From the IMG/VR virus record IMGVR_UViG_3300042397_000933, positions 1 to 29,233 of that record: a DNA stretch of 29,233 bases. One strand, given 5' to 3'. The DNA comes from a virus. Under the pieces are notes generated by a model. That model was not told where the DNA came from and did no database searches. It saw only the letters and a program-made list of their open reading frames with translations. Position numbers and translations under genes: made by a program. Below are positions 9,762 through 25,398 of the stretch, in pieces. Numbering within the stretch: the first letter of the stretch is position 1; every line of letters starts with the position of its first letter.

Positions 9762-10047
9762 ATTTTGTAAACTATGCGATAAACAATTTGAAACAAATAA
9801 TAAGAATCAAATATATTGCTGCTCTGATTGTAGATCTAATGCTACTAAGGAAAAAATTTTACAAAGGTATAAGGTTTCTAAAGTAAAGTCTCGTGCAAAC
9901 AAATCAAGGAAATGTGCTGGTGGATGCGGTATTGATATTAGCATTTACAATGATGTTGGTTTTTGCAACATCTGCATGATGAGTAAGAAAAAACTTGATC
10001 AAGCTTTAAAAGATATAAAAGGACTTTTTGATTATGAGCAAAAGTAG
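9754..10047 (+). CDS. Zinc-ribbon protein with two cysteine clusters
   Basis: This 97-residue protein has CKLCDKQF near its start paired with CCSDC at about 22-26. A second set, C-x3-C (CAGGC) and C-x2-C (CNIC), lies in its second half, so two zinc sites are likely. The linker between them is strongly basic, consistent with nucleic-acid binding. It starts at TTG 9754 behind AAGGAAAG and overlaps the Cas4-like gene by eight bases; the RuvC-like gene overlaps its end. The first module resembles zinc ribbons that accompany phage nucleases. No enzymatic motif is seen. Confidence 0.75.
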   Translation: MNKFCKLCDKQFETNNKNQIYCCSDCRSNATKEKILQRYKVSKVKSRANKSRKCAGGCGIDISIYNDVGFCNICMMSKKKLDQALKDIKGLFDYEQK

Positions 10048-10621
10048 TTGGAAAGATATTGGTAAGCCAAAAAGATTTATGTCAATAGACGCTTCCTCTA
10101 CTTCTGCTGCCTTTGCAATATTTGAAAACAGTGAATTGGTAAAGTTTGGAAAGATTAATTTTACTGGAAACGATCATTATAAAAAAGCTGGAGATGCTTG
10201 TAAAAAGCTAACTCCATTGTTTAAAACATTTGATGTTGAGGCAGTTGTAATAGAAAATACTATTTTTGCAAACTCTCCAAAGACATCTATGCAATTAGCA
10301 CTTGCACAGGGTGCTATTGTTAGTGCAGCATACATTAATGGGGTGAAGGAAATATATCCATGCGTACCAGTTGCTTGGCAAAACTGGATTGGAAACAAGG
10401 TTCTAACAAAAGAAGAAAAGTTTGAACTAAGAAAGAAGACTCCTGGAAAATCAGAATCTTGGTACAAAGGCAAGGAAAGAGAGTTCAGAAAGAATAGGAC
10501 TATTAGACTTGTTAATATAGAATTTATGACTGATGTAGATGACAACGATGTTGCTGATGCAATTGCAATTGGATGGTACTCTACAAACAACTGGAATAAA
10601 ATAACTAAACTTGACTCATAA
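10034..10621 (+). CDS. RuvC-like Holliday junction resolvase / RNase H-fold nuclease
   Basis: The 195 residues show the four acidic positions of the RuvC fold: D19 in MSIDASS, E74 in AVVIENT, and D172 and D175 in NDVADAIAIG. It should cut four-way junctions or branches before packaging. The start is set at ATG 10034, ten bases behind AAAGGA. An in-frame TTG at 10028 would leave only four bases. It overlaps the zinc-ribbon gene by 14 bases. Compared with bacterial RuvC (about 170) it carries a lysine-rich insert near 127-156. Confidence 0.87.
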   Translation: MSKSSWKDIGKPKRFMSIDASSTSAAFAIFENSELVKFGKINFTGNDHYKKAGDACKKLTPLFKTFDVEAVVIENTIFANSPKTSMQLALAQGAIVSAAYINGVKEIYPCVPVAWQNWIGNKVLTKEEKFELRKKTPGKSESWYKGKEREFRKNRTIRLVNIEFMTDVDDNDVADAIAIGWYSTNNWNKITKLDS

Positions 10622-10625
10622 AGGA

Positions 10626-10631
10626 TATAAT
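10626..10631 (+). promoter_or_regulatory. -10 box, predicted leaderless start for the HTH gene at 10638
   Basis: TATAAT lies exactly six bases ahead of the ATG at 10638. An overlapping alternative is TTGACT (10611-10616), 17 bases, TATTAT (10634-10639), which would start transcription inside the first codons, near Met3 at 10644. Either way there is no room for a normal leader with a ribosome binding site. Confidence 0.6.
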
Positions 10632-10637
10632 GATATT

Positions 10638-10790
10638 ATGAAAATGTACACTAATGAAAATTGGCTTAGAAAAAGATTCTTAATGGATAAAAAAACTCCA
10701 GAAGAGATTGCAAAAGAATGTGGAGTTTCACTTGAAACTATATATGTTTATCTTGGTAAGTTTGGATTGAGAAAGAGTAGAAGGAAGTAA
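10638..10790 (+). CDS. Tiny helix-turn-helix DNA-binding protein (50 aa)
   Basis: A 50-residue open frame fills the gap between the RuvC-like gene and the Nmad1-like gene. The segment KTPEEIAKECGVSLETIYVYLGKFGLRK is a textbook helix-turn-helix with the A-x3-G-V-S turn. The tail is strongly basic (RKSRRK). It is essentially just the DNA-binding unit and may act as a small repressor, activator or terminase helper. Its TAA overlaps the next ATG (TAATG). It is preceded by TATAAT six bases from the ATG. Met3 is an alternative start. Confidence 0.8.
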   Translation: MKMYTNENWLRKRFLMDKKTPEEIAKECGVSLETIYVYLGKFGLRKSRRK

Positions 10791-11125
10791 TGGCTGAATA
10801 CCCATCAGAAGCATTCTTTGTAAATAAGAATGAAGAAAAGATTAAAAAGATTTTTGAACTTTCTAAAACTGCACCAGCTGGATACAGTATCCTTGCTGCC
10901 TGTTTAGATATTACAGAAATGTTGCTAGAAAAGAATGTAGCATACGGAAACTCTGCTCTTAATCCTATTCGCATCTTTAGCAACGCAGACGATATGGAGC
11001 AGTTAAATGTTCGTATTGATGATAAGTTAAATAGAATTAAAAATAAAAAGCTGTATGCAGGTGACAATGACGAAGATGATTTAATTGGATACCTATTGCT
11101 AAAGAAGGCTAAAAAGCGTGGCTAA
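10790..11125 (+). CDS. Nucleotide-modification-associated domain (Nmad1/DUF1599)-like protein
   Basis: The 111 residues follow the pattern of the Nmad1 (DUF1599) family. LLEKNVAYGNSALNPIRIF (about 44-62) is followed by a helix with VRIDDKLNRIKN (about 74-85) and a closing DDLIGYLLL (about 96-104). This family was named from its association with phage nucleotide-modification systems; its chemistry is not established. Here it lies between a small HTH gene and the terminase genes. MazG and IMPDH/GMPR enzymes elsewhere in the window also act on nucleotides. It starts at a TAATG junction. Confidence 0.75.
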   Translation: MAEYPSEAFFVNKNEEKIKKIFELSKTAPAGYSILAACLDITEMLLEKNVAYGNSALNPIRIFSNADDMEQLNVRIDDKLNRIKNKKLYAGDNDEDDLIGYLLLKKAKKRG

Positions 11126-11405: not shown

Positions 11406-11904
11406 TCATTTAGATCTTGTTAATAAGGTTGCATCAGAATACCTAAAAGGTTCAGATGCTTCAGAGATTGCAAAAACTTTAAGTCTTCCAAGAGCAAAGG
11501 TAACAGAGTTACTTACTGACTGGAGAGTAATGGCTGCAAACAATCAAGCTATTCATGCTCGTGCAAAAGAGGCTCTTGCAGGTGCAGACCAGCACTACTC
11601 TTCGCTAATTAAAAAGGCTTATGAAGTTATTGACTCTGCAGATCAAACTGCAAATCTAACAGCCAAAACAACATCTATTAAACTTATTGCTGACATTGAA
11701 AGCAAAAGGCTTGAGATGCTACAAAAGGCAGGTCTGTTAGATAACCAAGAGTTGGCAGATGAACTTTTAGAAACAGAAAGAAAGCAAGAAATTCTTATAT
11801 CTATTCTAAAAGAAGTAACATCTTCTTGCGAAACCTGTAGACCAAAGGTTCTTAAAAAGCTTTCTCAGGTTAATGAGGGTGGAGTTGTTATAATTGACAA
11901 TTGA
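11380..11904 (+). CDS. Terminase small subunit-like protein
   Basis: This 174-residue helical protein lies directly before, and overlaps, the terminase large subunit. An N-terminal helix-turn-helix (about 17-48, EYLKGSDASEIAKTLSLPRAK in outline) is followed by long helices suited to ring oligomerisation. This matches small subunits that recognise phage DNA and start packaging. A C-terminal CETC pair is unusual and could bind metal or form a disulfide. The start is GTG 11380 behind GAGAGG. The call combines position, HTH and helical make-up; sequence alone is not diagnostic. Confidence 0.75.
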   Translation: MSSEAALVDHLDLVNKVASEYLKGSDASEIAKTLSLPRAKVTELLTDWRVMAANNQAIHARAKEALAGADQHYSSLIKKAYEVIDSADQTANLTAKTTSIKLIADIESKRLEMLQKAGLLDNQELADELLETERKQEILISILKEVTSSCETCRPKVLKKLSQVNEGGVVIIDN

Positions 11905-13678
11905 TATTAGTGACTTTATGGAGGCTCTTGATGAGTCACCTTTTGCAGAAACTCCTGTTGATGTTGTAACTTTTGTTACTGGAGAAAAGTTTTTAAATCA
12001 GCCAGACCTATCTGAGTATCAATACACCCTTGTTGAATGTATGAGTCAAATTTTTGAAGAAAAAGATTTGATTAGATTTATGGGAGAAGAGGCTGGTAAA
12101 GAACATTATAAAAAATATACCAAGAGCGAGATTATCATGCAGCTTGGAAAAGGTAGCGGAAAAGACTACACCTCTACAGTAGGATGTTCTTATTTAGTTT
12201 ATAAGCTACTATGCTTAAAAGATCCATCAAGATATTTTGGCAAACCATCTAATGATGCTATTGATATTATGAATGTTGCTATCAATGCTCAACAGGCTAA
12301 GAATGTTTTCTTCAAAGGATTTAGAAGTAAGATAGAAGGATCTCCGTGGTTTGCGGGAAAGTTTTCTGCTCCAAAAATTGATAGTATTGAGTTTGACAAA
12401 GCAATTACCGTTTACTCTGGTCACTCTGAAAGAGAGTCTGCTGAAGGTTTGAACTTAATGCTTGCAATCCTTGATGAGATTTCTGGCTTTGCAATGGAGT
12501 CTGCAAGTGGAAACGATCATGCTAAGACGGCTGATAATATTTATAAAGCATTTCGTGGATCTGTTGACTCACGTTTTCCAGACTTTGGAAAAGTTGTTCT
12601 ATTGTCATTCCCTCGTTTTAAAGGTGACTTTATTTCAACAAGGTATGAAGATGTTATTGCAGAAAAAGAAACTGTGGTTAGGTCACATGAATTTATTTTA
12701 AACCCTGCCCTATCAGAAGATGATCCTCAAAATAAGTTTACTGTAGAGTGGGACGAGGATCATATCAACTCATACAAGCTCCCTGGAGTTTTTGCACTTA
12801 AGAGACCAACTTGGGAAATTAATCCAACAAGAAAAATTGAAGATTTTAAGTTAGCATTTTTTACAGATATGGCTGATGCACTAATGCGTTTTGCCTGTAT
12901 GCCAACTACATCATCTGATGCATTTTTTAAGAACAGGGAAAAGCTAGGGATGGCTTTTAAAAAGAATAATCCAATTGATAGTGCAAAAAGAATAGAAGAA
13001 TCTTTTGTTCCAGATGCAGAGACAACATACTATGTTCATGCTGACCTTGCTCAAAAACATGATAAGTGTGCTGTAGCAATATCCCATGTTGACAAGTGGG
13101 TAAGCGTACAGTCTTTTAATGGATATGAACAAGTAGTTCCATTCGTTGTTGTTGATGCGATAGTTTATTGGGAGCCAAGGAAAGAAGGTCCAGTAGATTT
13201 ATCAGAAGTAAAAAACTGGATCATTAATCTTAGAAGACTTGGATTTAATTTAGGAATGGTTACTTTTGACCGTTGGAATTCTTTTGACATTCAAAGAGAC
13301 TTGACAAGTGTTGGAATTAAAACAGAAACTCTTTCGGTAGCTAAAAAGCACTACGAAGATCTTTCTATGCTGGTTTATGAAGAAAGAGTTGTTCTTCCTC
13401 AAATAGATTTATTACTTGAAGAAATGCAGGAACTTAGAATTATGAATAATAATAGAGTAGATCACCCTAGAAAGAAGTCTAAGGACCTTGCAGATGCTAT
13501 GTGTGGCTCAGTATATAATGCAATTAGTCATACAAGAAGAGAAAAAATTCAGGAAGTAGAAGTTCATACTTATAAGTCTCGTCCAAAGGTTGACAAGGAC
13601 GATGAAAAAATGGTACAATCGAAACCTGAAATGACAGAAGATATTAAAGAATATCTTATGAACTTTAATTTAATTTAG
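11894..13678 (+). CDS. terL: Terminase large subunit (packaging ATPase and nuclease)
   Basis: This is the motor that cuts concatemers and pumps DNA into the prohead. The 594 residues contain the ATPase Walker A LGKGSGKD (84-91) and a Walker B with catalytic acid, LAILDEISG (about 190-198). The C-terminal RNase H-fold nuclease provides acidic residues in YYVHADLA (about 377-384), VTFDRWN (near 460) and KDLADAMCG (about 532-540). It starts at TTG 11894 with GAGGGTGGAG eight bases upstream and overlaps the small subunit by 11 bases. Its 3' end contains a consensus promoter for the next operon. Confidence 0.95.
   Translation: MTIDISDFMEALDESPFAETPVDVVTFVTGEKFLNQPDLSEYQYTLVECMSQIFEEKDLIRFMGEEAGKEHYKKYTKSEIIMQLGKGSGKDYTSTVGCSYLVYKLLCLKDPSRYFGKPSNDAIDIMNVAINAQQAKNVFFKGFRSKIEGSPWFAGKFSAPKIDSIEFDKAITVYSGHSERESAEGLNLMLAILDEISGFAMESASGNDHAKTADNIYKAFRGSVDSRFPDFGKVVLLSFPRFKGDFISTRYEDVIAEKETVVRSHEFILNPALSEDDPQNKFTVEWDEDHINSYKLPGVFALKRPTWEINPTRKIEDFKLAFFTDMADALMRFACMPTTSSDAFFKNREKLGMAFKKNNPIDSAKRIEESFVPDAETTYYVHADLAQKHDKCAVAISHVDKWVSVQSFNGYEQVVPFVVVDAIVYWEPRKEGPVDLSEVKNWIINLRRLGFNLGMVTFDRWNSFDIQRDLTSVGIKTETLSVAKKHYEDLSMLVYEERVVLPQIDLLLEEMQELRIMNNNRVDHPRKKSKDLADAMCGSVYNAISHTRREKIQEVEVHTYKSRPKVDKDDEKMVQSKPEMTEDIKEYLMNFNLI
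13590..13619 (+). promoter_or_regulatory. Strong promoter inside terL for the dehydratase and IMPDH/GMPR genes
   Basis: TTGACA (13590-13595), an 18-base spacer ending TGG, and TACAAT (13614-13619) combine a perfect -35 with an extended -10. Predicted start is near 13626, giving a leader of about 68 bases to the ATG at 13694. A six-pair stem, GATATT with AATATC (13640-13655), lies in this leader. Confidence 0.7.
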
Positions 13679-13693
13679 TAGAAATGGAAAATA

Positions 13694-14707
13694 ATGAGTA
13701 AGAGAGTTCTTTTAACTGGTGCTAGTGGTTTTGTTGGAAGCCATGTATTGAGACACCTATTGGTTAACACAGATTGGTTTATTGTTTGTCCAACTACATT
13801 TACACACAAAGGTTTGACAGATAGAATTAACGTTGCTTGTGACGATTTTCCAGATGCTTACAAACGTATCAAGGTAATTAAGACAGACTTAACAGCTCCA
13901 ATTTCTCCAGTAACTTATCATGCATTTGGAGAAATTGATTATGTTATAAATGTTGCTAGTGAAAGTCATGTTGATAGAAGTATTGAAGAGCCTACTCCTT
14001 TTATCTTAAACAATGTTTCTTTAATATGTAATCTGCTTGATTGGGCAAGAGTTTCAAAACCAGAAAAGTTTTTGCATATATCAACTGATGAAGTTTATGG
14101 TCCAGCTCCAAAGGGACACGCTCACAAAGAATGGGTAGATCAATACTTCCCAAGCAATCCATACTCTGCTTCTAAAGCAGCACAAGAAAGCATTGCGTTT
14201 TCATACTGGAGAACATACGGTGTTCCAGTTGCAATTACAAACACAATGAATATTATTGGAGAAACTCAGGATACCGAAAAGTTTATGCCAATGGTAATTA
14301 AAAAGGTTCTTAATGGCGATACAATGAAGATACATGCATCTCCAGAGGGAGAAGTTGGAAGTCGCTTTTATCTACATGCTAGAAATCAAGCAGATGGTCT
14401 TTTGCACGTTCTTAAGCAGCACTTCCCAGCCTACGGAGAATCTGATGTTCCAGCAAAGTTTCACATTGTTGGTGAAAGAGAAGTTGACAATTTAGAAATG
14501 GCTCAGTTAATTGCTTCAGCAGTAGGAAAGCCTTTACGCTATGAGTTAGAAGACTTTCATTCATCACGTCCAGGACACGATCTAAGGTACGCCTTGGATG
14601 GAAAAAAGATAGCTGACACAGGATGGGTATCACCAATGCCACTAGAAGAATCTATTAGAAAGACAGTTGAGTGGACTCTTAAGCATCCAGAATGGCTTAA
14701 TTTGTGA
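13694..14707 (+). CDS. dTDP-glucose 4,6-dehydratase-like NAD-dependent epimerase/dehydratase (RmlB-like)
   Basis: This extended short-chain dehydrogenase has 337 residues. GASGFVGSH (9-17) binds NAD. SHVDRSIEEP and STDEVYG carry the dehydratase Asp-Glu pair, and PYSASKAAQ the catalytic Tyr-x3-Lys. RPGHDLRYALD near the C-terminus is a hallmark of nucleotide-sugar 4,6-dehydratases such as RmlB. It would make a 4-keto-6-deoxy sugar nucleotide for phage or host glycan modification. It shares a promoter and a GTGA overlap with the IMPDH/GMPR gene, and glycan genes lie at 22993-25398. The exact nucleotide-sugar substrate is uncertain. Confidence 0.9.
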   Translation: MSKRVLLTGASGFVGSHVLRHLLVNTDWFIVCPTTFTHKGLTDRINVACDDFPDAYKRIKVIKTDLTAPISPVTYHAFGEIDYVINVASESHVDRSIEEPTPFILNNVSLICNLLDWARVSKPEKFLHISTDEVYGPAPKGHAHKEWVDQYFPSNPYSASKAAQESIAFSYWRTYGVPVAITNTMNIIGETQDTEKFMPMVIKKVLNGDTMKIHASPEGEVGSRFYLHARNQADGLLHVLKQHFPAYGESDVPAKFHIVGEREVDNLEMAQLIASAVGKPLRYELEDFHSSRPGHDLRYALDGKKIADTGWVSPMPLEESIRKTVEWTLKHPEWLNL

Positions 14708-15735
14708 AAGAGTACTTAGTTAACAACGACATTTGTTTTGATGATATCTTAATGGTTCCACAGTACTCAGAGGTAATAAGTAGATCTTTGGTGGACTTAA
14801 AAATGCATACTGGTGGATACACATGGTTAGACCTACCAGTAATTGCTTCTCCTATGGATACTGTTTGTGAAAAAGATATGGCAATTGCAATTGCTGAATC
14901 TGGTGGTATTGGAATTATTCATAGATTTATGTCAGTAAAAAATCAGATAAAAATGGTTGAACAGGTTTTTAGCCATAAGAATCTTGGACTTCCTGTTGGT
15001 GCAGCTTTGTCAACTAACTTTATTGAAGAGCATGTTGATAAGTTAATTAAAGCAGGAGCTTCAATGCTTTTAATTGATACTGCTAATGGTCATAGTAAAG
15101 TAGCAATTGATGCAGTTGCTAGGCTTAAAAACCTTGTTGAAGATTCTGTTCATATTATGGCTGGAAATGTTGCTACCGTTGAAGGTTATATTGCATTAGA
15201 TTCTGCAGGTGCTGATTCTATTAGAGTTGGCATTGGTGGAGGTAGCATGTGCACAACAAGGATTGTATCTGGTCATGGTATTCCAACACTATCTTCAATT
15301 ATAAACGTGCGAGAGGCAAAAGATAAGTTTGGCTTAAATGCTGCTATTGTAGCAGATGGTGGCATTAGAAATACTGGAGACATGGTTAAAGCATTTGCAG
15401 CAGGAGCAGACTCCGTGATGCTTGGCTCAATGTTGGCTGGTACTGATGAATCTCCAGGATCTTTACATTTTAAAGGTGATAAAAAATTTAAAGTATTTAG
15501 GGGAATGGCTAGTAAAGAAGCTAATAAAGATAAAGACATTGCAGTTGCAGAAGGAATCTCTACAATGATTCCATACAAAGGATCTGTAAAAGATATTTTT
15601 AAAGATATTAAGGGTGGCATTGGAAGTGGATGCTCCTATAGTGGAGTAGACTATCTTTGCAATTTATATCAAGAATCTATGTATGTTAGGGTATCGCCAC
15701 TAACTGTAAAGGAGTCAATGCCACATGGAAAATAA
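14704..15735 (+). CDS. IMP dehydrogenase / GMP reductase family enzyme (GuaB/GuaC-like, no CBS domains)
   Basis: This TIM-barrel enzyme acts on purine nucleotides. [11 protein letters not shown] places the catalytic cysteine at C183, [11 protein letters not shown] and MLGSMLAGT are phosphate-site loops, and [11 protein letters not shown] (283-293) is the conserved late loop. At 343 residues it lacks the CBS pair of most IMP dehydrogenases and has the length of GMP reductases. The flap between GMAS (268-271) and EGI is very short and has no Arg-Tyr dyad of IMPDH, which points toward GMP reductase chemistry. The C-terminal ESMPHG resembles IMPDH. Direction (IMP to XMP, or GMP to IMP) is therefore open. 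GTG start overlaps rmlB-like by four bases. Confidence 0.93.
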
Positions 15736-18354: not shown

Positions 18355-18568
18355 TCTAAATAAAATGGAATCAATAGTAGGTAACAACCCTTCTTTAAAA
18401 TGGGAAGGTTGGAGCGTAGTATTTATTGAAGAGGATGGAGATGCTAACTTGAAAAAGAATGCAGCCTTCATTGACTCTAAGTGGCACAAGAAGATTGTGT
18501 TTGAAAATATTGATGGGGTATGGGATATTCCAGACTCTATATTAAGGAAGGGCGATGTACAAGTTTGA
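18341..18568 (+). CDS. Hypothetical protein upstream of whiB
   Basis: This 75-residue protein starts at GTG 18341, overlapping the membrane protein gene by 14 bases, and overlaps whiB by 14 bases. The middle (WEGWSVVFIEEDGDANLKKNAAFID) suggests a small beta fold. No cysteine or membrane signature is seen. No function proposed. Confidence 0.6.
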   Translation: MKISDLNKMESIVGNNPSLKWEGWSVVFIEEDGDANLKKNAAFIDSKWHKKIVFENIDGVWDIPDSILRKGDVQV

Positions 18569-18836
18569 TGAAAAAGCTTTATGCCTTAATATGGATACAA
18601 ATCTTTTCTTTGATCAATATGAAGAAAATCCAGAAGTTTCAAAAAAAGTAGATCTTTTATGTATAAAATGTCCAGCACAAAGACAGTGCCTAGCTTATGG
18701 AGTCAGTAATTCTGAGTGGGGTGTTTGGGGCGGTGTTTACCTAGAAGGTGGAAAGATATCTAAAGAGTTTAACAGTCATAAAGAAAAGACTGACTGGTTT
18801 AATGTTTGGTCTGGAATAACTTTGGAAAATAGCTAA
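18555..18836 (+). CDS. whiB: WhiB-family iron-sulfur transcriptional regulator
   Basis: The four cysteines that hold the WhiB 4Fe-4S cluster are C10, C36, C39 and C45, the last three in the C-x2-C-x5-C spacing of the family. The turn GVWGG (56-60), which packs on the RNA polymerase sigma-4 domain, follows. WhiB-like proteins are essentially confined to Actinobacteria and their phages, making this the best host clue in the window. In mycobacteriophages such proteins alter host gene expression. The C-terminal DNA-binding tail here is short and only mildly basic. It overlaps neighbours by 14 and one bases. Confidence 0.95.
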   Translation: MYKFDEKALCLNMDTNLFFDQYEENPEVSKKVDLLCIKCPAQRQCLAYGVSNSEWGVWGGVYLEGGKISKEFNSHKEKTDWFNVWSGITLENS

Positions 18837-20796: not shown

Positions 20797-20975
20797 TGTC
20801 ATTAGTTGCAAAAATTAAACAAATGTTGAAAGAGTACCAAGAAGAAAATGGAACTCTTGATGATAAAGAATATGAAAAGTTATTTGTGCATTTTTATTTA
20901 CAGCATGAAGATGAGTACTTAAAGAAAAGAATTAGCTCTATTAGATCAGATGGAAAAAGTAGGAACTTTAGATGA
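20796..20975 (+). CDS. Small charged hypothetical protein (59 aa)
   Basis: The frame begins at the TAATG junction at 20796 and ends at TGA 20973-20975, overlapping the next ATG by four bases. The 59 residues are helical and highly charged (KIKQMLKEYQEENG; EDEYLKKRISSIRSDGKSR) with no cysteine. Continuous packing with both neighbours supports it as real. Function unknown. Confidence 0.65.
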   Translation: MSLVAKIKQMLKEYQEENGTLDDKEYEKLFVHFYLQHEDEYLKKRISSIRSDGKSRNFR

Positions 20976-21253
20976 AAGTTAGAATAAGCAAGAGAGAGTA
21001 TTCAGACTATATCGAAAACGATACAGACATTGCCCTTGCAGCAGAGATGGCTGTTATAGTTGCAAAGTCAAACCCGATGGTTATTGGAGAGCCTGTTGCT
21101 GAAATTAGTCCAGGATGTCCTATGGGATATGCCAGACCAAAAGTAATTCTGAACTATGATATTATTAACCCTAGTGCCTTTGATAAATTAAAAATGATTT
21201 TAACAGGAAAATCTTTAAATGATATTGTCAAAGAAATCAAGGGAGAAGTTTAA
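20972..21253 (+). CDS. Hypothetical protein (93 aa)
   Basis: An ATGA overlap joins it to the gene before, and the next ATG follows its stop directly. The middle contains EPVAEISPGCPMGYARPKVILNYDII, a mixed strand-loop pattern, and the C-terminus is a helix. There is no membrane segment or recognised motif. Confidence 0.65.
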   Translation: MKVRISKREYSDYIENDTDIALAAEMAVIVAKSNPMVIGEPVAEISPGCPMGYARPKVILNYDIINPSAFDKLKMILTGKSLNDIVKEIKGEV

Positions 21254-21496
21254 ATGGATTTTGAATTACATCATGAAAAAGATGCTGGACCAATAGTTCG
21301 TTGGTTTGCAAATAAAATGTTAATCCTGTTGCATAAGGTTGAAAAGCCTTTGTATGACTATGCAGATATGTATACAGCAGTATGGGATGACTATGAAGAA
21401 GATGTGGATCTTTATACTCCTCATAATCAAATGGCATTCTTTGATAACCTTGAACCACTGCCTCAGTTTGAGCACTTAACAGATGACCTACTATAA
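21254..21496 (+). CDS. Acidic hypothetical protein (80 aa)
   Basis: It begins directly after the preceding stop (TAA-ATG) with GGAGAAG upstream. The product is rich in Asp, Glu, Tyr and Trp, with helix RWFANKMLILLHKVEK followed by an acidic region (WDDYEEDVDLY). A TAATG junction couples it to the next gene. Family unknown. Confidence 0.65.
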   Translation: MDFELHHEKDAGPIVRWFANKMLILLHKVEKPLYDYADMYTAVWDDYEEDVDLYTPHNQMAFFDNLEPLPQFEHLTDDLL

Positions 21497-21693
21497 TGTG
21501 CGATGAAGTTTATTATTATAAAGATCAGGTAAGAGAGCTTCAAGCTATTAATGGTTTTGTTAAAAGAAACACCTTGCTTTCTGTGCAAAGTAGAATAGAA
21601 TATGTTAGAGACGAACGAGTCAAATTAGGATTACCAGTTCATGGTGTCGCTATGGCTCTTGAAATAGTTAGGACAATGTTGAATGAAAAATAA
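21496..21693 (+). CDS. Hypothetical protein (65 aa)
   Basis: This short helical protein starts at TAATG and overlaps the next gene by 11 bases. A charged helix (YYYKDQVRELQAINGFVKR) leads into an amphipathic second half. Nothing in it points to a function. Confidence 0.6.
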   Translation: MCDEVYYYKDQVRELQAINGFVKRNTLLSVQSRIEYVRDERVKLGLPVHGVAMALEIVRTMLNEK

Positions 21694-21904
21694 AAAAGAA
21701 GTAAAAGATGCAAGAACAATAATTTATGAAAACAATTTATACACAGTAGATGAGTTTGTTAATAAATATTCTCAAGCTTTAAAGTCATATTTACTTACAA
21801 GACAACTTGGAGATAAGAGCAAGAAGTCTCACATAGTTGATCTTGCGGTAGAAAATGCATCCTTTGCAGAATCTCTTTATATTTCAGTGGATAGTTTTAG
21901 ATAA
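21683..21904 (+). CDS. Hypothetical protein (73 aa)
   Basis: The start at ATG 21683 overlaps the previous gene by 11 bases. A lysine-rich N-terminus is followed by helices (YTVDEFVNKYSQALKSYLLTRQ), which could be a small DNA-binding or interaction domain. It is coupled to the next gene at TAATG. Family unknown. Confidence 0.6.
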   Translation: MKNKKEVKDARTIIYENNLYTVDEFVNKYSQALKSYLLTRQLGDKSKKSHIVDLAVENASFAESLYISVDSFR

Positions 21905-22047
21905 TGTTTCTTACAAAGATGATTAGGTTTGCAGAAAAAATTGGCATGGACGTAGACGAACTTATGGAAATGACAGTCCTTGATGCCATAATGAAAATAG
22001 AAGATACAAGAACAATGTGGGCAGAATTAAAAAAGGATATTGGTTAA
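21904..22047 (+). CDS. Very small hypothetical protein upstream of ftsZ (47 aa)
   Basis: The frame runs from the TAATG junction at 21904 to TAA 22045-22047 and encodes 47 residues forming about two amphipathic helices, rich in Met (MIRFAEKIGMDVDELMEM). It fills the gap before the ftsZ -10 box exactly. Being adjacent to ftsZ it is a candidate FtsZ-associated factor, on position alone. Confidence 0.6.
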   Translation: MFLTKMIRFAEKIGMDVDELMEMTVLDAIMKIEDTRTMWAELKKDIG

Positions 22048-22061: not shown

Positions 22062-23000
22062 ATGAATAAAATAATTGACATAAAGGTAATAGGATGCGGT
22101 GGCGGTGGAGTAAATGCCGTTAATAGCATGATCACTTCTGGTCTGTCTGGAGTAGAGTTTATTGGAATAAATACAGATGCTCAAGCACTTCTACCAAGCT
22201 TAGCAGATGTAAAAATTGATATTGGAAAAGATAGAACTCGTGGTCTTGGTGCAGGTGCAGATCCAAACATTGGTAGGCTTTCTGCAAAAGACAGTGTAAA
22301 TGAAATATCCGAAGTTGTTCATGGTGCAGACGTTGTTTTTGTAACTGCTGGAATGGGTGGTGGAACTGGAACTGGTTCTGCTCCAATAGTTGCTAACTGT
22401 GCTAAAAAGGCTGGTGCATTAACTGTAGGCGTTGTAACTACCCCATTTGCATTTGAGGGAAAGAAAAGAATGAACAATGCCTTAGAAGGAATTAATAGTT
22501 TTAGTAAGGAAGTTGACACCCTTATAGTTATTCCAAATGAAAATTTAATTCAGATGCTTGATCCAAATATTTCTATGGAAGATGCATTTAAAGAGGCTGA
22601 TGACGTTCTTCTTAAAGCAGTAGCAGGTATTTCAGATCTAATTACTACACCTGGTCAAATTAATATTGACTTTGCAGATATAAAAAGGGTAATGAAAGAT
22701 GCTGGTTCTGCTTTTATGGGAATTGGATACGCAGAGGGAGAGGATCGTGCTGAAGTTGCAGGTAATAAAGCAATTACTAGCCCTATTCTTAATGTTGATT
22801 TGCATGGTGCTACTGGTGTCCTAATTTCAATCGCATCCTCTGGTCAAATAAAGATGCAAGAAGTAAATAAAATTGCATCCCTTGTAGGAGATAAGGCACA
22901 CGAAGATGCTGATATTATTTTTGGAACAGTTTTAGATGAAGATTTAGAAGACGGAATTTTAGTAACGGTAGTAGCTACAGGATTTGTTGGCAGTGAATAA
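22062..23000 (+). CDS. ftsZ: FtsZ cell-division GTPase, core only (C-terminal tail absent)
   Basis: This is a genuine bacterial FtsZ, not a PhuZ-type phage tubulin. The tubulin signature GGGTGTG is at 99-105, the N-terminal nucleotide loop GCGGGGVNAV at 11-20, TRGLGAGADP at 59-68, and the T7 synergy loop N201-I-D203-F-A-D206. It should bind GTP and polymerise. At 312 residues it stops right after the core (ATGFVGSE); the disordered linker and conserved C-terminal peptide that bind SepF, FtsA or FtsW are missing. Start is ATG 22062 from the -10 box spacing and homology (MNKIIDIKVIG). It overlaps the methyltransferase gene by eight bases. Confidence 0.96.
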   Translation: MNKIIDIKVIGCGGGGVNAVNSMITSGLSGVEFIGINTDAQALLPSLADVKIDIGKDRTRGLGAGADPNIGRLSAKDSVNEISEVVHGADVVFVTAGMGGGTGTGSAPIVANCAKKAGALTVGVVTTPFAFEGKKRMNNALEGINSFSKEVDTLIVIPNENLIQMLDPNISMEDAFKEADDVLLKAVAGISDLITTPGQINIDFADIKRVMKDAGSAFMGIGYAEGEDRAEVAGNKAITSPILNVDLHGATGVLISIASSGQIKMQEVNKIASLVGDKAHEDADIIFGTVLDEDLEDGILVTVVATGFVGSE

Positions 23001-23730
23001 TTTAGTAGAAAAAAATACTCAATACGGATACATGTCTTATTTTAAAAATGATATGGCATTTGCAGATAGCCTAAATGCTGGACAAGTTTATGAACAAGAC
23101 TTTGTAATGGAATTTTTGCAGGACGTAGTTAAGTCTAGTAAAACTATTTTAGATATAGGATCCCACGCTGGATCTCATACAGTATTATATAAGCATATAA
23201 ATCCAGATTGTAAAATATACTGCTTTGAACCTCAGTCAGAAATGTTCAAACTACTTGAGCATAATATTTCTAAAAACTCTTTTAAAGATGTTATTGCTCA
23301 TAACAAAGGGGTAGCCAATGTAGCAATTAAATCAAGCATGAGCAAGTCCGTTCTTGATGGTGATAATGTTGGAAAAGCTATTGAGTATGGGACTGGTAAA
23401 AGATTTAATTTAGGTGGGCTACAGGTAGGAAATGGTGGAGAAGAAATTGAAACCCTTACTGTTGATAGTTTAAATCTTACTGAGTGTGACTATATTAAAA
23501 TTGACGTTGAAGGCTTTGAACCACTTGTTTTGATGGGGGCAGAACAAACAATAAAAAAGTTTAAGCCAACTATATTGTTTGAGTCTAATCACAAGGTTAT
23601 TTCAAAAGAAATGGCTGAAAGTTTTGGACTTTCTTATCCAGTAGCAAGTTCATTTGACATCTTAAAATCGTATGGGTATAAAGACATAGTTTTAATTGAC
23701 GGTCTTTGGAATTATTTAGCTAGGTATTAG
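22993..23730 (+). CDS. FkbM-family methyltransferase
   Basis: This SAM-dependent methyltransferase has 245 residues. The motif I glycine loop is ILDIGSHAGSHT (about 52-63), the ribose-binding acid is in YCFEPQSEM, and the family's IKIDVEGFEPLVLMGA motif lies near 169-184. FkbM enzymes O-methylate sugars or other hydroxyls. With the propeller protein and glycosyltransferase downstream it suggests glycan modification. The start is uncertain: GTG 22993 has AGGA at a normal distance, while TTG 22984 and TTG 22987 lie too close to it. Confidence 0.9.
   Translation: MNNLVEKNTQYGYMSYFKNDMAFADSLNAGQVYEQDFVMEFLQDVVKSSKTILDIGSHAGSHTVLYKHINPDCKIYCFEPQSEMFKLLEHNISKNSFKDVIAHNKGVANVAIKSSMSKSVLDGDNVGKAIEYGTGKRFNLGGLQVGNGGEEIETLTVDSLNLTECDYIKIDVEGFEPLVLMGAEQTIKKFKPTILFESNHKVISKEMAESFGLSYPVASSFDILKSYGYKDIVLIDGLWNYLARY
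23654..23682 (+). promoter_or_regulatory. Promoter inside the methyltransferase gene for the glycan genes downstream
   Basis: TTGACA (23654-23659), 17 bases and TATAAA (23677-23682) match consensus at eleven of twelve positions. Predicted start near 23690 gives a leader of about 49 bases to ATG 23739, which has a TAGG ribosome site. Confidence 0.55.
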
Positions 23731-23738
23731 GTTAATAT

Positions 23739-24641
23739 ATGCTATTTGATAATACAGGAAAAAATGTTGTAAACAATTTAAATGAAAACTATATTAGAAA
23801 AACCCTTGTTCCGTTAAAACACCACTTTAATTTTTCTGAAACCAAACTATTGTACGATGAAAAAGATTTATATTTTAACATGAGCTTAATCTCTTTTGAA
23901 AATGAACTTCACTATGCTGTTAGAGGAGGTCACAAACATATTGGAAAAATGTATTTACATCCAGAGTTTACTAGCACTGTTCATGTTGGAGTAGTTGACG
24001 AAGCTATAAAAAATAGAAGGCAGATAAATGTTACATTCCCTAAAGTAAAAAATGGAACACTTGGAATGGAAGACCCTAGAATATTTGAATGGAAAAACAA
24101 ACTATTCTTTTCTGGAGACATTCCTTTTAACTTAAGAGGCAGAAGTCAAAAAAATGCTTTTGTAAATATTGAAACTAATGAGTGTGAAGTTTTTGTAGAC
24201 CCACTCAATAGAAAGATGAGTAAAAATTGGATGCCATATGTAAATGAAGATAATCTTTATTTTGTTATTGATGTTTTACCAACAAGAATTTTAGACACAA
24301 AAACAAGGAAGGCTCAGGCTTATAATGATAAGGTTGTTACAAACACACCAGTCTATGGTGGTCCAAGAATTATAAACATAGATGGGATTAAAACTTCAAT
24401 CGTTCATGGAAGAGCTAACAATGCTTACTGGCACTCTATAGCTCAGTGGGATGATAATTGGAATTTAAAAATTTCTGATCCTTTTTATTTTACCAAGCCT
24501 GGAGTTGAATTTTGCACAGGATACGAAGTTCATAATGGAAAACTATATTTTACATATTCAGAGTATGATGATGGAGTTGTGTTGTGCAGCATAGATCTTG
24601 ATTCATTTTTAAATAGTGCTATTTGGAGCAGAAATGTTTAA
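23739..24641 (+). CDS. Beta-propeller glycosidase/phosphorylase-like protein (GH130/GH43-type fold)
   Basis: The 300 residues have the repeated strand pattern of a five-bladed propeller. GMEDPRIFEWKNKLFFSG (about 108-125) carries the E-D-P-R motif of GH130 and related GH32/43/68 enzymes. GGPRII (near 207) and FCTGYEVHNGKLYFTYSEYDDG (about 260-281) fit later blades. GH130 members cleave or phosphorolyse beta-mannosides. In this context it more likely trims or recognises a glycan. No signal peptide, so it acts in the cytoplasm or on the virion. Catalytic assignment is uncertain. Confidence 0.75.
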   Translation: MLFDNTGKNVVNNLNENYIRKTLVPLKHHFNFSETKLLYDEKDLYFNMSLISFENELHYAVRGGHKHIGKMYLHPEFTSTVHVGVVDEAIKNRRQINVTFPKVKNGTLGMEDPRIFEWKNKLFFSGDIPFNLRGRSQKNAFVNIETNECEVFVDPLNRKMSKNWMPYVNEDNLYFVIDVLPTRILDTKTRKAQAYNDKVVTNTPVYGGPRIINIDGIKTSIVHGRANNAYWHSIAQWDDNWNLKISDPFYFTKPGVEFCTGYEVHNGKLYFTYSEYDDGVVLCSIDLDSFLNSAIWSRNV

Positions 24642-25398
24642 AGAAATAGATTATAACAAGCACTTTGTTATTGGTACACCGCTCGTTGGATGGAAAGTTG
24701 ACAGAAAAGAACACCTTGCCTGGATTCAAGATAGTAAAGAAATATTGGAAAGGTTTCCAAATGCAAAATTTTTTGCTGCTCTTGAGTTAGACTCTAGAGG
24801 AGAACAAGTTTTTTATGAAATTATAGATAGACTAAAAGATATAGATGGAGAGTATTGGACGTACTCAATAAATGATAAGGAAAGTATAGTTACCTCTTAT
24901 AATAGATGGATAAGAATTGAAACTGGTAGAAATCTTATTAGAGAGTTTGCACAAAGACATAGAAAAATGTCAGGACATCATTGGGGAGAAAATTCTTCAA
25001 AAGAAAATAAGGGTGCAATAAACTATGATGCAATTTTATATGTTGATTCAGATACAATAGTTAATGTAGAAATTATTGAAAAAATGATGGAAATAGATCA
25101 TCCAGTTGTAAGCGTAAACGTACCAGCTTATGGTTTAAAAGGTAAAGTTATAAATGAAAATCCAAGAATAGAAGAGCATTGGAATACTGCTGGAATGTTA
25201 TTAGTAAATTCTCCAGCTTTTTATGACCTTTCTTGGGGGTATAATGCTATAGAAAATTTGAGTGACGATCCAACTTTTCAAAACCATGCAGAAAGACTTG
25301 GATATGGGCAAACTTGGGTTAGGAAAGACATCAATGCAAAGCATATTGGAAAATTACTTCCAGTAGAAAATAGAAGAATTCCTCCTAGAGATCTATAG
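24634..25398 (+). CDS. Glycosyltransferase, GT-A type
   Basis: The 254-residue protein contains ILYVDSDTIV (about 133-142), a D-x-D metal and nucleotide-sugar site of GT-A glycosyltransferases. TSYNRWIRIETGRNLIREFAQ is an upstream helical region and WNTAGMLLVNSPAF a following acceptor-side segment. Start is ATG 24634, with GGAG six bases upstream; an in-frame GTG at 24616 has none. It overlaps the propeller gene by eight bases and is followed by a terminator. It probably glycosylates host envelope material or a phage component. Confidence 0.82.
   Translation: MFKEIDYNKHFVIGTPLVGWKVDRKEHLAWIQDSKEILERFPNAKFFAALELDSRGEQVFYEIIDRLKDIDGEYWTYSINDKESIVTSYNRWIRIETGRNLIREFAQRHRKMSGHHWGENSSKENKGAINYDAILYVDSDTIVNVEIIEKMMEIDHPVVSVNVPAYGLKGKVINENPRIEEHWNTAGMLLVNSPAFYDLSWGYNAIENLSDDPTFQNHAERLGYGQTWVRKDINAKHIGKLLPVENRRIPPRDL

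Follow-up and report, generated by a model that had tools for sequence, protein, structure and literature searches.

Why would a phage carry the core of the bacterial division protein FtsZ and leave out the tail? The question is raised by the window analyzed here, a stretch of 29,233 nucleotides (positions 1 to 29,233 of IMG/VR virus record IMGVR_UViG_3300042397_000933), where a plus-strand gene at 22062-23000 encodes a 312-aa FtsZ that ends almost immediately after its core. In FtsZ, the end peptide of the tail binds membrane anchors and partners (excerpt of PMC8142252).

The tail-less ftsZ gene and its protein

The ORF begins with an ATG at 22062 and ends with a stop codon at 22998-23000; a GTG at 22017, 45 bases upstream on the same strand, is a possible alternative start. 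The Tubulin/FtsZ GTPase domain (PF00091, residues 7-166, 22080-22559) contains the loops GCGGGG and GGGTGTG, and is followed by a T7 (synergy) loop recognized by its sequence NIDFAD (22662-22679), which is catalytic for the neighboring FtsZ subunit (excerpt of PMC13423816). The FtsZ_C core domain (PF12327, residues 215-308, 22704-22985) covers positions 1-94 of the 95 in the model. Both Pfam matches are above cut-off, and the protein reaches 390.6 bits against the NCBIfam model TIGR00065 (ftsZ, cut-off 295.2), with a match that also ends at residue 308. After the core there are 4 residues, VGSE, and the stop (22986-23000), with neither linker nor end peptide. The sequence-only reading had described a true FtsZ with GGGTGTG and NIDFAD in its core and no C-terminal tail, and all of this holds.

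The same reading had set the protein apart from PhuZ, the phage tubulin, and every comparison agrees. The window protein scores only 29.4 bits with the PHROG profile for PhuZ, and BLASTP finds 22% identity over 157 residues with phiKZ PhuZ against 61% over 293 residues with the FtsZ of Tsukamurella. An AlphaFold2 model (pLDDT 75.7, a moderate value; pTM 0.76) was compared by Foldseek, and M. tuberculosis FtsZ takes the two top places among the PDB matches, at TM scores of 0.93 (61% identity) and 0.92; as modeled, the fold of the phage protein is the FtsZ fold. Among the ten best viral models, two carry an FtsZ or cell-division annotation (TM 0.79 and 0.72, identity 21% and 17%), and the remaining eight have TM scores of 0.57-0.64, three of them being named tubulin, tubulin-like or PhuZ (Noxifer PhuZ, 0.58). 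The phage tubulins found by fold here are thus far from FtsZ in sequence. In the tree, PhuZ stands well outside, at the end of a very long branch. The profile, the BLASTP identity, the TM scores (0.58 against 0.93) and the tree position lead us to reject a PhuZ identity.

Tail loss across the phage clade

Three ftsZ scans of the IMG/VR viral contigs recovered 70 distinct contigs with an ftsZ of the window type (the tail tally spanned 93 loci, some contigs being in duplicate). Group 1 has 48 contigs whose ftsZ is 78-100% identical to that of the window, and group 2 has 22 contigs at about 64%. One of the group 1 contigs, the 72,942-bp record L002, contains the window base for base at positions 29357-58589, without mismatch, so it represents the window's phage again and adds no independent case. 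The scans do not favor tail-less copies, since the search peptides all lie within the core.

In all 70 contigs, 69 of them records other than that of the window's phage, the stop codon comes 2-5 residues past the core. On the other hand, cellular FtsZ extends 34-152 residues past the core in 80 of 80 bacterial loci (median 64), a set of 80 out of 178 loci in which none is titled Actinomycetota and many come from few groups. The motif P.F[LI] is found within the last 20 residues in 73 of these loci; of the other seven, four have IPDFV at the end and three show neither ending. The actinobacterial references are plasmid-collection and phage-collection records plus one PDB sequence, the FtsZ of the host itself not being among them. 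The three actinobacterial-type references have 75-171 residues past the core: 75 in Tsukamurella, with the end motif DVPSFL, and 171 in Nonomuraea, with DVPDFL. The phage-collection record MT835570, which groups with actinobacterial FtsZ, has 131 and an end peptide.

A tail lost through a sequencing frameshift or an assembly error near 22990-23000 had been named as a risk to the description. The error is excluded by the identical stop in 70 of 70 contigs together with the dN/dS values given below. The tail loss is old and maintained, since it is present in all 70 contigs, including two groups that are just about 64% identical. The absence of the tail is a conserved trait of the clade. The claim had concerned a single copy; the gene exists as described, and it is conserved in a phage lineage.

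We also looked for the missing functions elsewhere in these phages. In seven sequences scanned, no end-peptide-like ORF recurred: a loose end-peptide pattern occurred in 3 ORFs, one in each of three records, and these are attributed to chance because their sequences and positions are unlike. A tail supplied by a separate phage protein was rejected on this basis. No SepF-type anchor was above cut-off in 12 phage records, some of which may be fragments; the best match was a single sub-threshold one of 12.4 bits against a cut-off of 27.

Selection and conserved residues

Full-length copies are available from 66 of the 70 contigs, the 4 fragments being excluded from the dN/dS, cluster and motif counts. 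A threshold of 95% nucleotide identity sorts them into 36 clusters (25 in group 1 and 11 in group 2), and dN/dS was calculated by the Nei-Gojobori count with one representative per cluster. The median is 0.130 in group 1 (maximum 0.234, 300 pairs) and 0.168 in group 2 (maximum 0.230, 55 pairs), so ftsZ is under clear purifying selection in both groups. None of the 66 copies is interrupted.

Each of GGGTGTG, N[IV]DFAD, NTD.QAL and the glycine-rich first loop is present in all 66 copies, and the looser pattern PN[EDQ]NL in 63. Across 84 cellular FtsZ sequences, 124 positions are at least 90% uniform; at least 90% of the 36 phage representatives retain the residue at 94 of them, while the other 30 fall short of this. 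Other residues are specific to the phages, such as C12, S106, N161, K185, A188 and I271, each occurring in no more than 1% of cellular sequences. Because the motifs of both subunit faces are intact, a polymerizing subunit seems favored over a one-sided cap.

Distribution and gene neighborhood

The WhiB-like regulator of the window (18555-18836, plus strand), an actinobacterial host marker, served as an ftsZ-independent bait, and the contigs chosen with it offer a fairer denominator since they were selected independently of ftsZ. We took the best 80 of 151 contigs and applied one rule for the presence or absence of ftsZ, which required at least 7 kb downstream of whiB and sought ftsZ up to 10 kb downstream. 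Where whiB is at least 90% identical, ftsZ is present in 22 of 22 such contigs (one being the window's phage), and at 76-82% in 3 of 3, so 25 of 25 testable contigs with a whiB of at least 76% identity carry the gene. At 60-75%, ftsZ is found in 1 of 8. Another 47 of the 80 contigs have less than 7 kb downstream, and 8 of these also contain ftsZ.

Several different genes come after ftsZ among the 29 loci mapped. In 21 of them, a glycan-type gene pair lies downstream of ftsZ, immediately so in 20, namely a family 2 glycosyltransferase and a HAD/nucleotidyltransferase fusion, and in L022 this cassette pair is followed by an FkbM methyltransferase and proteins of 153 and 265 aa. The window is among the eight loci without the pair. 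Its first downstream glycan-type gene is an FkbM-family methyltransferase (22984-23730, plus strand), read in another frame from a TTG start with a 17-base overlap with ftsZ, and then come a 300-aa gene and a 260-aa protein with no Pfam match (24616-25398, plus strand), a 70% relative of the 265-aa protein that is the last cassette gene in many relatives. In ftsZ-less L262, L263 and L267, a 92-aa ORF occupies the ftsZ position and the same cassette follows, with four of its six genes 71-78% and two 47-55% identical to those of the ftsZ-carrying phages. From the whiB-based counts and this shared cassette, ftsZ appears to be fixed in a single lineage, cleanly gained or lost at the cassette junction. 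L256, an ftsZ-less contig read gene by gene, has no such cassette. The related phages without ftsZ (L262, L263, L264, L266, L267 and L268) constitute a natural ftsZ-minus comparison group.

Directly upstream of ftsZ, the window has small ORFs of 47-93 aa (20972-22047) that are common to most mapped group 1 loci and without match in the mapped group 2 loci; the phage FtsZ may have partners among them. In L034 (8486-9978), L123 (a pair) and L128 (one), the conserved 47-aa gene is separated from ftsZ by genes of about 250 aa, and the one tested had no Pfam match. Elsewhere in the window, a 343-aa enzyme of the IMPDH/GMP reductase type (14704-15735; PF00478, 334 bits) stays below cut-off with each of the 22 NCBIfam models listed.

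The terminase large subunit (11894-13678, plus strand) has its best matches in Streptomyces phages such as Genie2 and StarPlatinum (54% identity), and the best match of DnaE is Streptomyces phage BillNye (51%). These similarities and the presence of WhiB indicate that the carrier viruses probably infect actinobacteria. The neighbors of ftsZ in the window are phage genes, and the terminase, the polymerase, whiB and the conserved phage synteny reject host contamination, so the gene is phage-encoded, as had been proposed. It lies outside any division or wall gene cluster, whereas Tsukamurella ftsZ is within one (ftsQ, murC and sepF type).

Phylogeny and origin

In the larger tree, the phage FtsZ sequences form one clade with support of 100/98 (36 rows). 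Their sister group is a few actinobacterial sequences in one tree (88/84) and again in a tree that includes PhuZ (82/88), the comparison that the sequence-only reading had called for. In the larger tree, the placement of the phage clade relative to actinobacterial sequences is not resolved, and none of five alternative placements was rejected at 0.05 (p = 0.054, 0.064, 0.067, 0.159 and 0.217). Microbacterium L163, recovered in pieces, was excluded from the trees. The highest cellular identity to the window FtsZ is about 61% among the sequences compared.

Phage FtsZ shares 3 of 20 diagnostic sites with Actinobacteria; in the other groups the counts are 2 of 45, 0 of 24, 1 of 10 and 0 of 17, which lends slight support to an actinobacterial origin. 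The T7 segment is the most actinobacterial-like region (83%; the four remaining regions are at 52-64%), in a loop that is conserved in FtsZ generally. Taken together, the sequences are suggestive of a phage ftsZ derived from actinobacterial FtsZ. The earlier idea of a host-derived gene is thus backed by the two sister-group placements, while the larger tree and the placement tests do not settle it.

Other viral ftsZ sequences

Four further sequences from the scans were kept out of the clade counts. L199 carries a viral FtsZ-like protein of another type (9986-10921; 311 aa, 32-33% identity, no tail) on a 126-kb IMG/VR contig, with a Tubulin domain at 105.8 bits and FtsZ_C slightly below cut-off. 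L196, a 13-kb IMG/VR contig, has a tailed FtsZ (180-1301) that continues 58 residues past the core and ends in FDIPTFLRKK; it either comes from contaminating host DNA or is a phage FtsZ of another sort. The L142 sequence (45% identity, GC 58%) has 75 residues past the core, and L143 is an ftsZ fragment without its end.

A tblastn search of the window FtsZ against 50,697 phage records returned 25 matches, none of them in a record named as a Streptomyces or Gordonia phage. The ftsZ in human fecal contigs and in Listeria, Enterococcus and Acinetobacter phage records is of the ordinary host type by appearance. Apart from MT835570, the one of the 25 that was looked at closely, these matches are probable cellular contamination.

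Possible role of the phage FtsZ

Judging from its sequence, we would give even odds to the phage FtsZ being a polymerizing, unanchored subunit that joins the Z-ring filaments of the host and blocks division. The core would keep GTP binding, GTP hydrolysis and filament stacking and, with no linker or end peptide, nothing would bind the protein to SepF, FtsW or the membrane; an unanchored polymer is expected because the FtsZ tail carries the anchor-binding end peptide. The phage FtsZ would then enter host filaments and dilute their membrane anchors, the Z-ring would become unstable or non-functional, and the infected cell would grow without dividing and remain whole until lysis. The complete reading, in which a captured FtsZ lost its tail before the two groups diverged, was kept so, joins the Z-ring unanchored and stops division, has in our estimate a probability of about 0.45. 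Polymerization, mixing with host FtsZ, loss of anchoring and the division block are all steps that we infer.

We favor this division block because the tail loss is kept, the gene is under purifying selection, its motifs are intact, neither a SepF nor an end-peptide ORF was found in the records searched, and there are precedents. In E. coli, a GFP-FtsZ without residues 375-383 enters rings and causes mild filamentation, with multiple rings in some cells (excerpt of PMC3983244, which also places ClpXP degradation sites in the tail and linker). Plant FtsZ1 has no end peptide and constrains FtsZ2 assembly; it presumably joins the ring by assembling together with FtsZ2, although the sedimentation test in that study gave no direct evidence for the co-assembly (excerpt of PMC8142252). 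T7 Gp0.4 and Kil block division through FtsZ (excerpt of PMC13423816). Phage WhiB-like proteins are reported as septation inhibitors (excerpt of PMC10202952), a report that bears on the proposed division block since the window's phage also carries whiB. Some points weigh against it. A pure poison need not retain GTPase chemistry so strictly, co-assembly requires compatibility with a host FtsZ when the best cellular identity is about 61%, and the confidence of the model is moderate. Regarding the precedents, the E. coli construct retained its linker, and the plant case has the sedimentation result just mentioned.

The main rival is an independent phage filament, a polymer of the phage protein with itself that would place or transport phage DNA, replication sites or virions in the manner of PhuZ, and for which a tail would be dispensable in the absence of an anchor. 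It would produce an identical sequence picture, with assembly motifs intact and the tail lost, and the residues fixed in phages alone (N161, K185, A188 and others) could mean self-assembly only; phages do use tubulin-family filaments in this way (excerpts of PMC7824862 and PMC8597652). We still consider it unlikely, since sequence and fold are near bacterial FtsZ (61%, TM 0.93) and not PhuZ (22% over 157 residues, TM 0.58). Less probable again is a regulated partner that co-assembles with host FtsZ and speeds its turnover, as plant FtsZ1 does, so that septum synthesis is redirected, growth or wall synthesis continues, and there is no full block. The plant precedent and the strictly conserved GTPase motifs fit such a partner, but SepF, the sole phage division partner sought, was not above cut-off in the 12 records.

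The two other readings are weaker. A published defense system senses FtsZ bound to a phage inhibitor (excerpt of PMC13423816), and the phage protein might thus be a decoy that binds host factors aimed at FtsZ, such as division inhibitors or FtsZ-sensing defense proteins, and shields the infection; we regard this as improbable, because a decoy does not need the T7 motif that all 66 full-length copies have. The host-like sequence and the shortened end could also recall a passenger host gene that has no role and is decaying. This is hardly credible with dN/dS medians of 0.13-0.17, no interrupted copy among 66 and ftsZ in 25 of 25 testable contigs picked by whiB, and we discarded it since purifying selection and lineage-wide presence contradict it.

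Comparison with known systems

To our knowledge, phage attacks on division are made by small unrelated inhibitors in all known cases. An FtsZ core without a tail seems to be undescribed in phages, although the viral model library has two remote phage proteins under the names FtsZ or cell division protein. A search of the literature by title and opening of the abstract, with subscription papers and preprints outside its scope, found no description of a phage group with tail-less FtsZ; matching by exact phrases led to a single paper, on an FtsZ inhibitor; the main text of a freshwater actinophage paper (PMC6802176) mentions neither FtsZ nor tubulin, and a hot-spring study has tubulin/FtsZ among its viral protein clusters (excerpt of PMC8597652). 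The conserved tail-less core is a natural counterpart of the laboratory truncations that probe tail function, and it makes testable the behavior of an unanchored FtsZ in live cells, the gain for a phage from halted division, and the takeover of uncultured actinobacteria.

The closest known proteins are the FtsZ of Actinomycetota (M. tuberculosis, Tsukamurella and Nonomuraea), which have the same whole core, motifs and fold at about 60% identity. They differ in what follows the core, 75 residues in Tsukamurella and 171 in Nonomuraea against 2-5 in the phages, and the phage gene stands outside a division cluster. FtsZm of Magnetospirillum is an FtsZ-like second copy reported as a likely interaction partner of the ordinary FtsZ. 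It has no tail, is chromosomal and acts in magnetosome formation. PhuZ of the phiKZ-type phages is also a phage-encoded tubulin-family protein, distant from the window FtsZ by all the measures given above. Chloroplast FtsZ1 resembles the phage protein in having no end peptide and is the presumed partner of a tailed FtsZ (excerpt of PMC8142252), but it is a plastid protein with extensions of its own, required for division and not viral. T7 Gp0.4 and lambda Kil share with the phage FtsZ the proposed outcome, a halted division, while they bind or act on FtsZ and are not FtsZ themselves (excerpt of PMC13423816).
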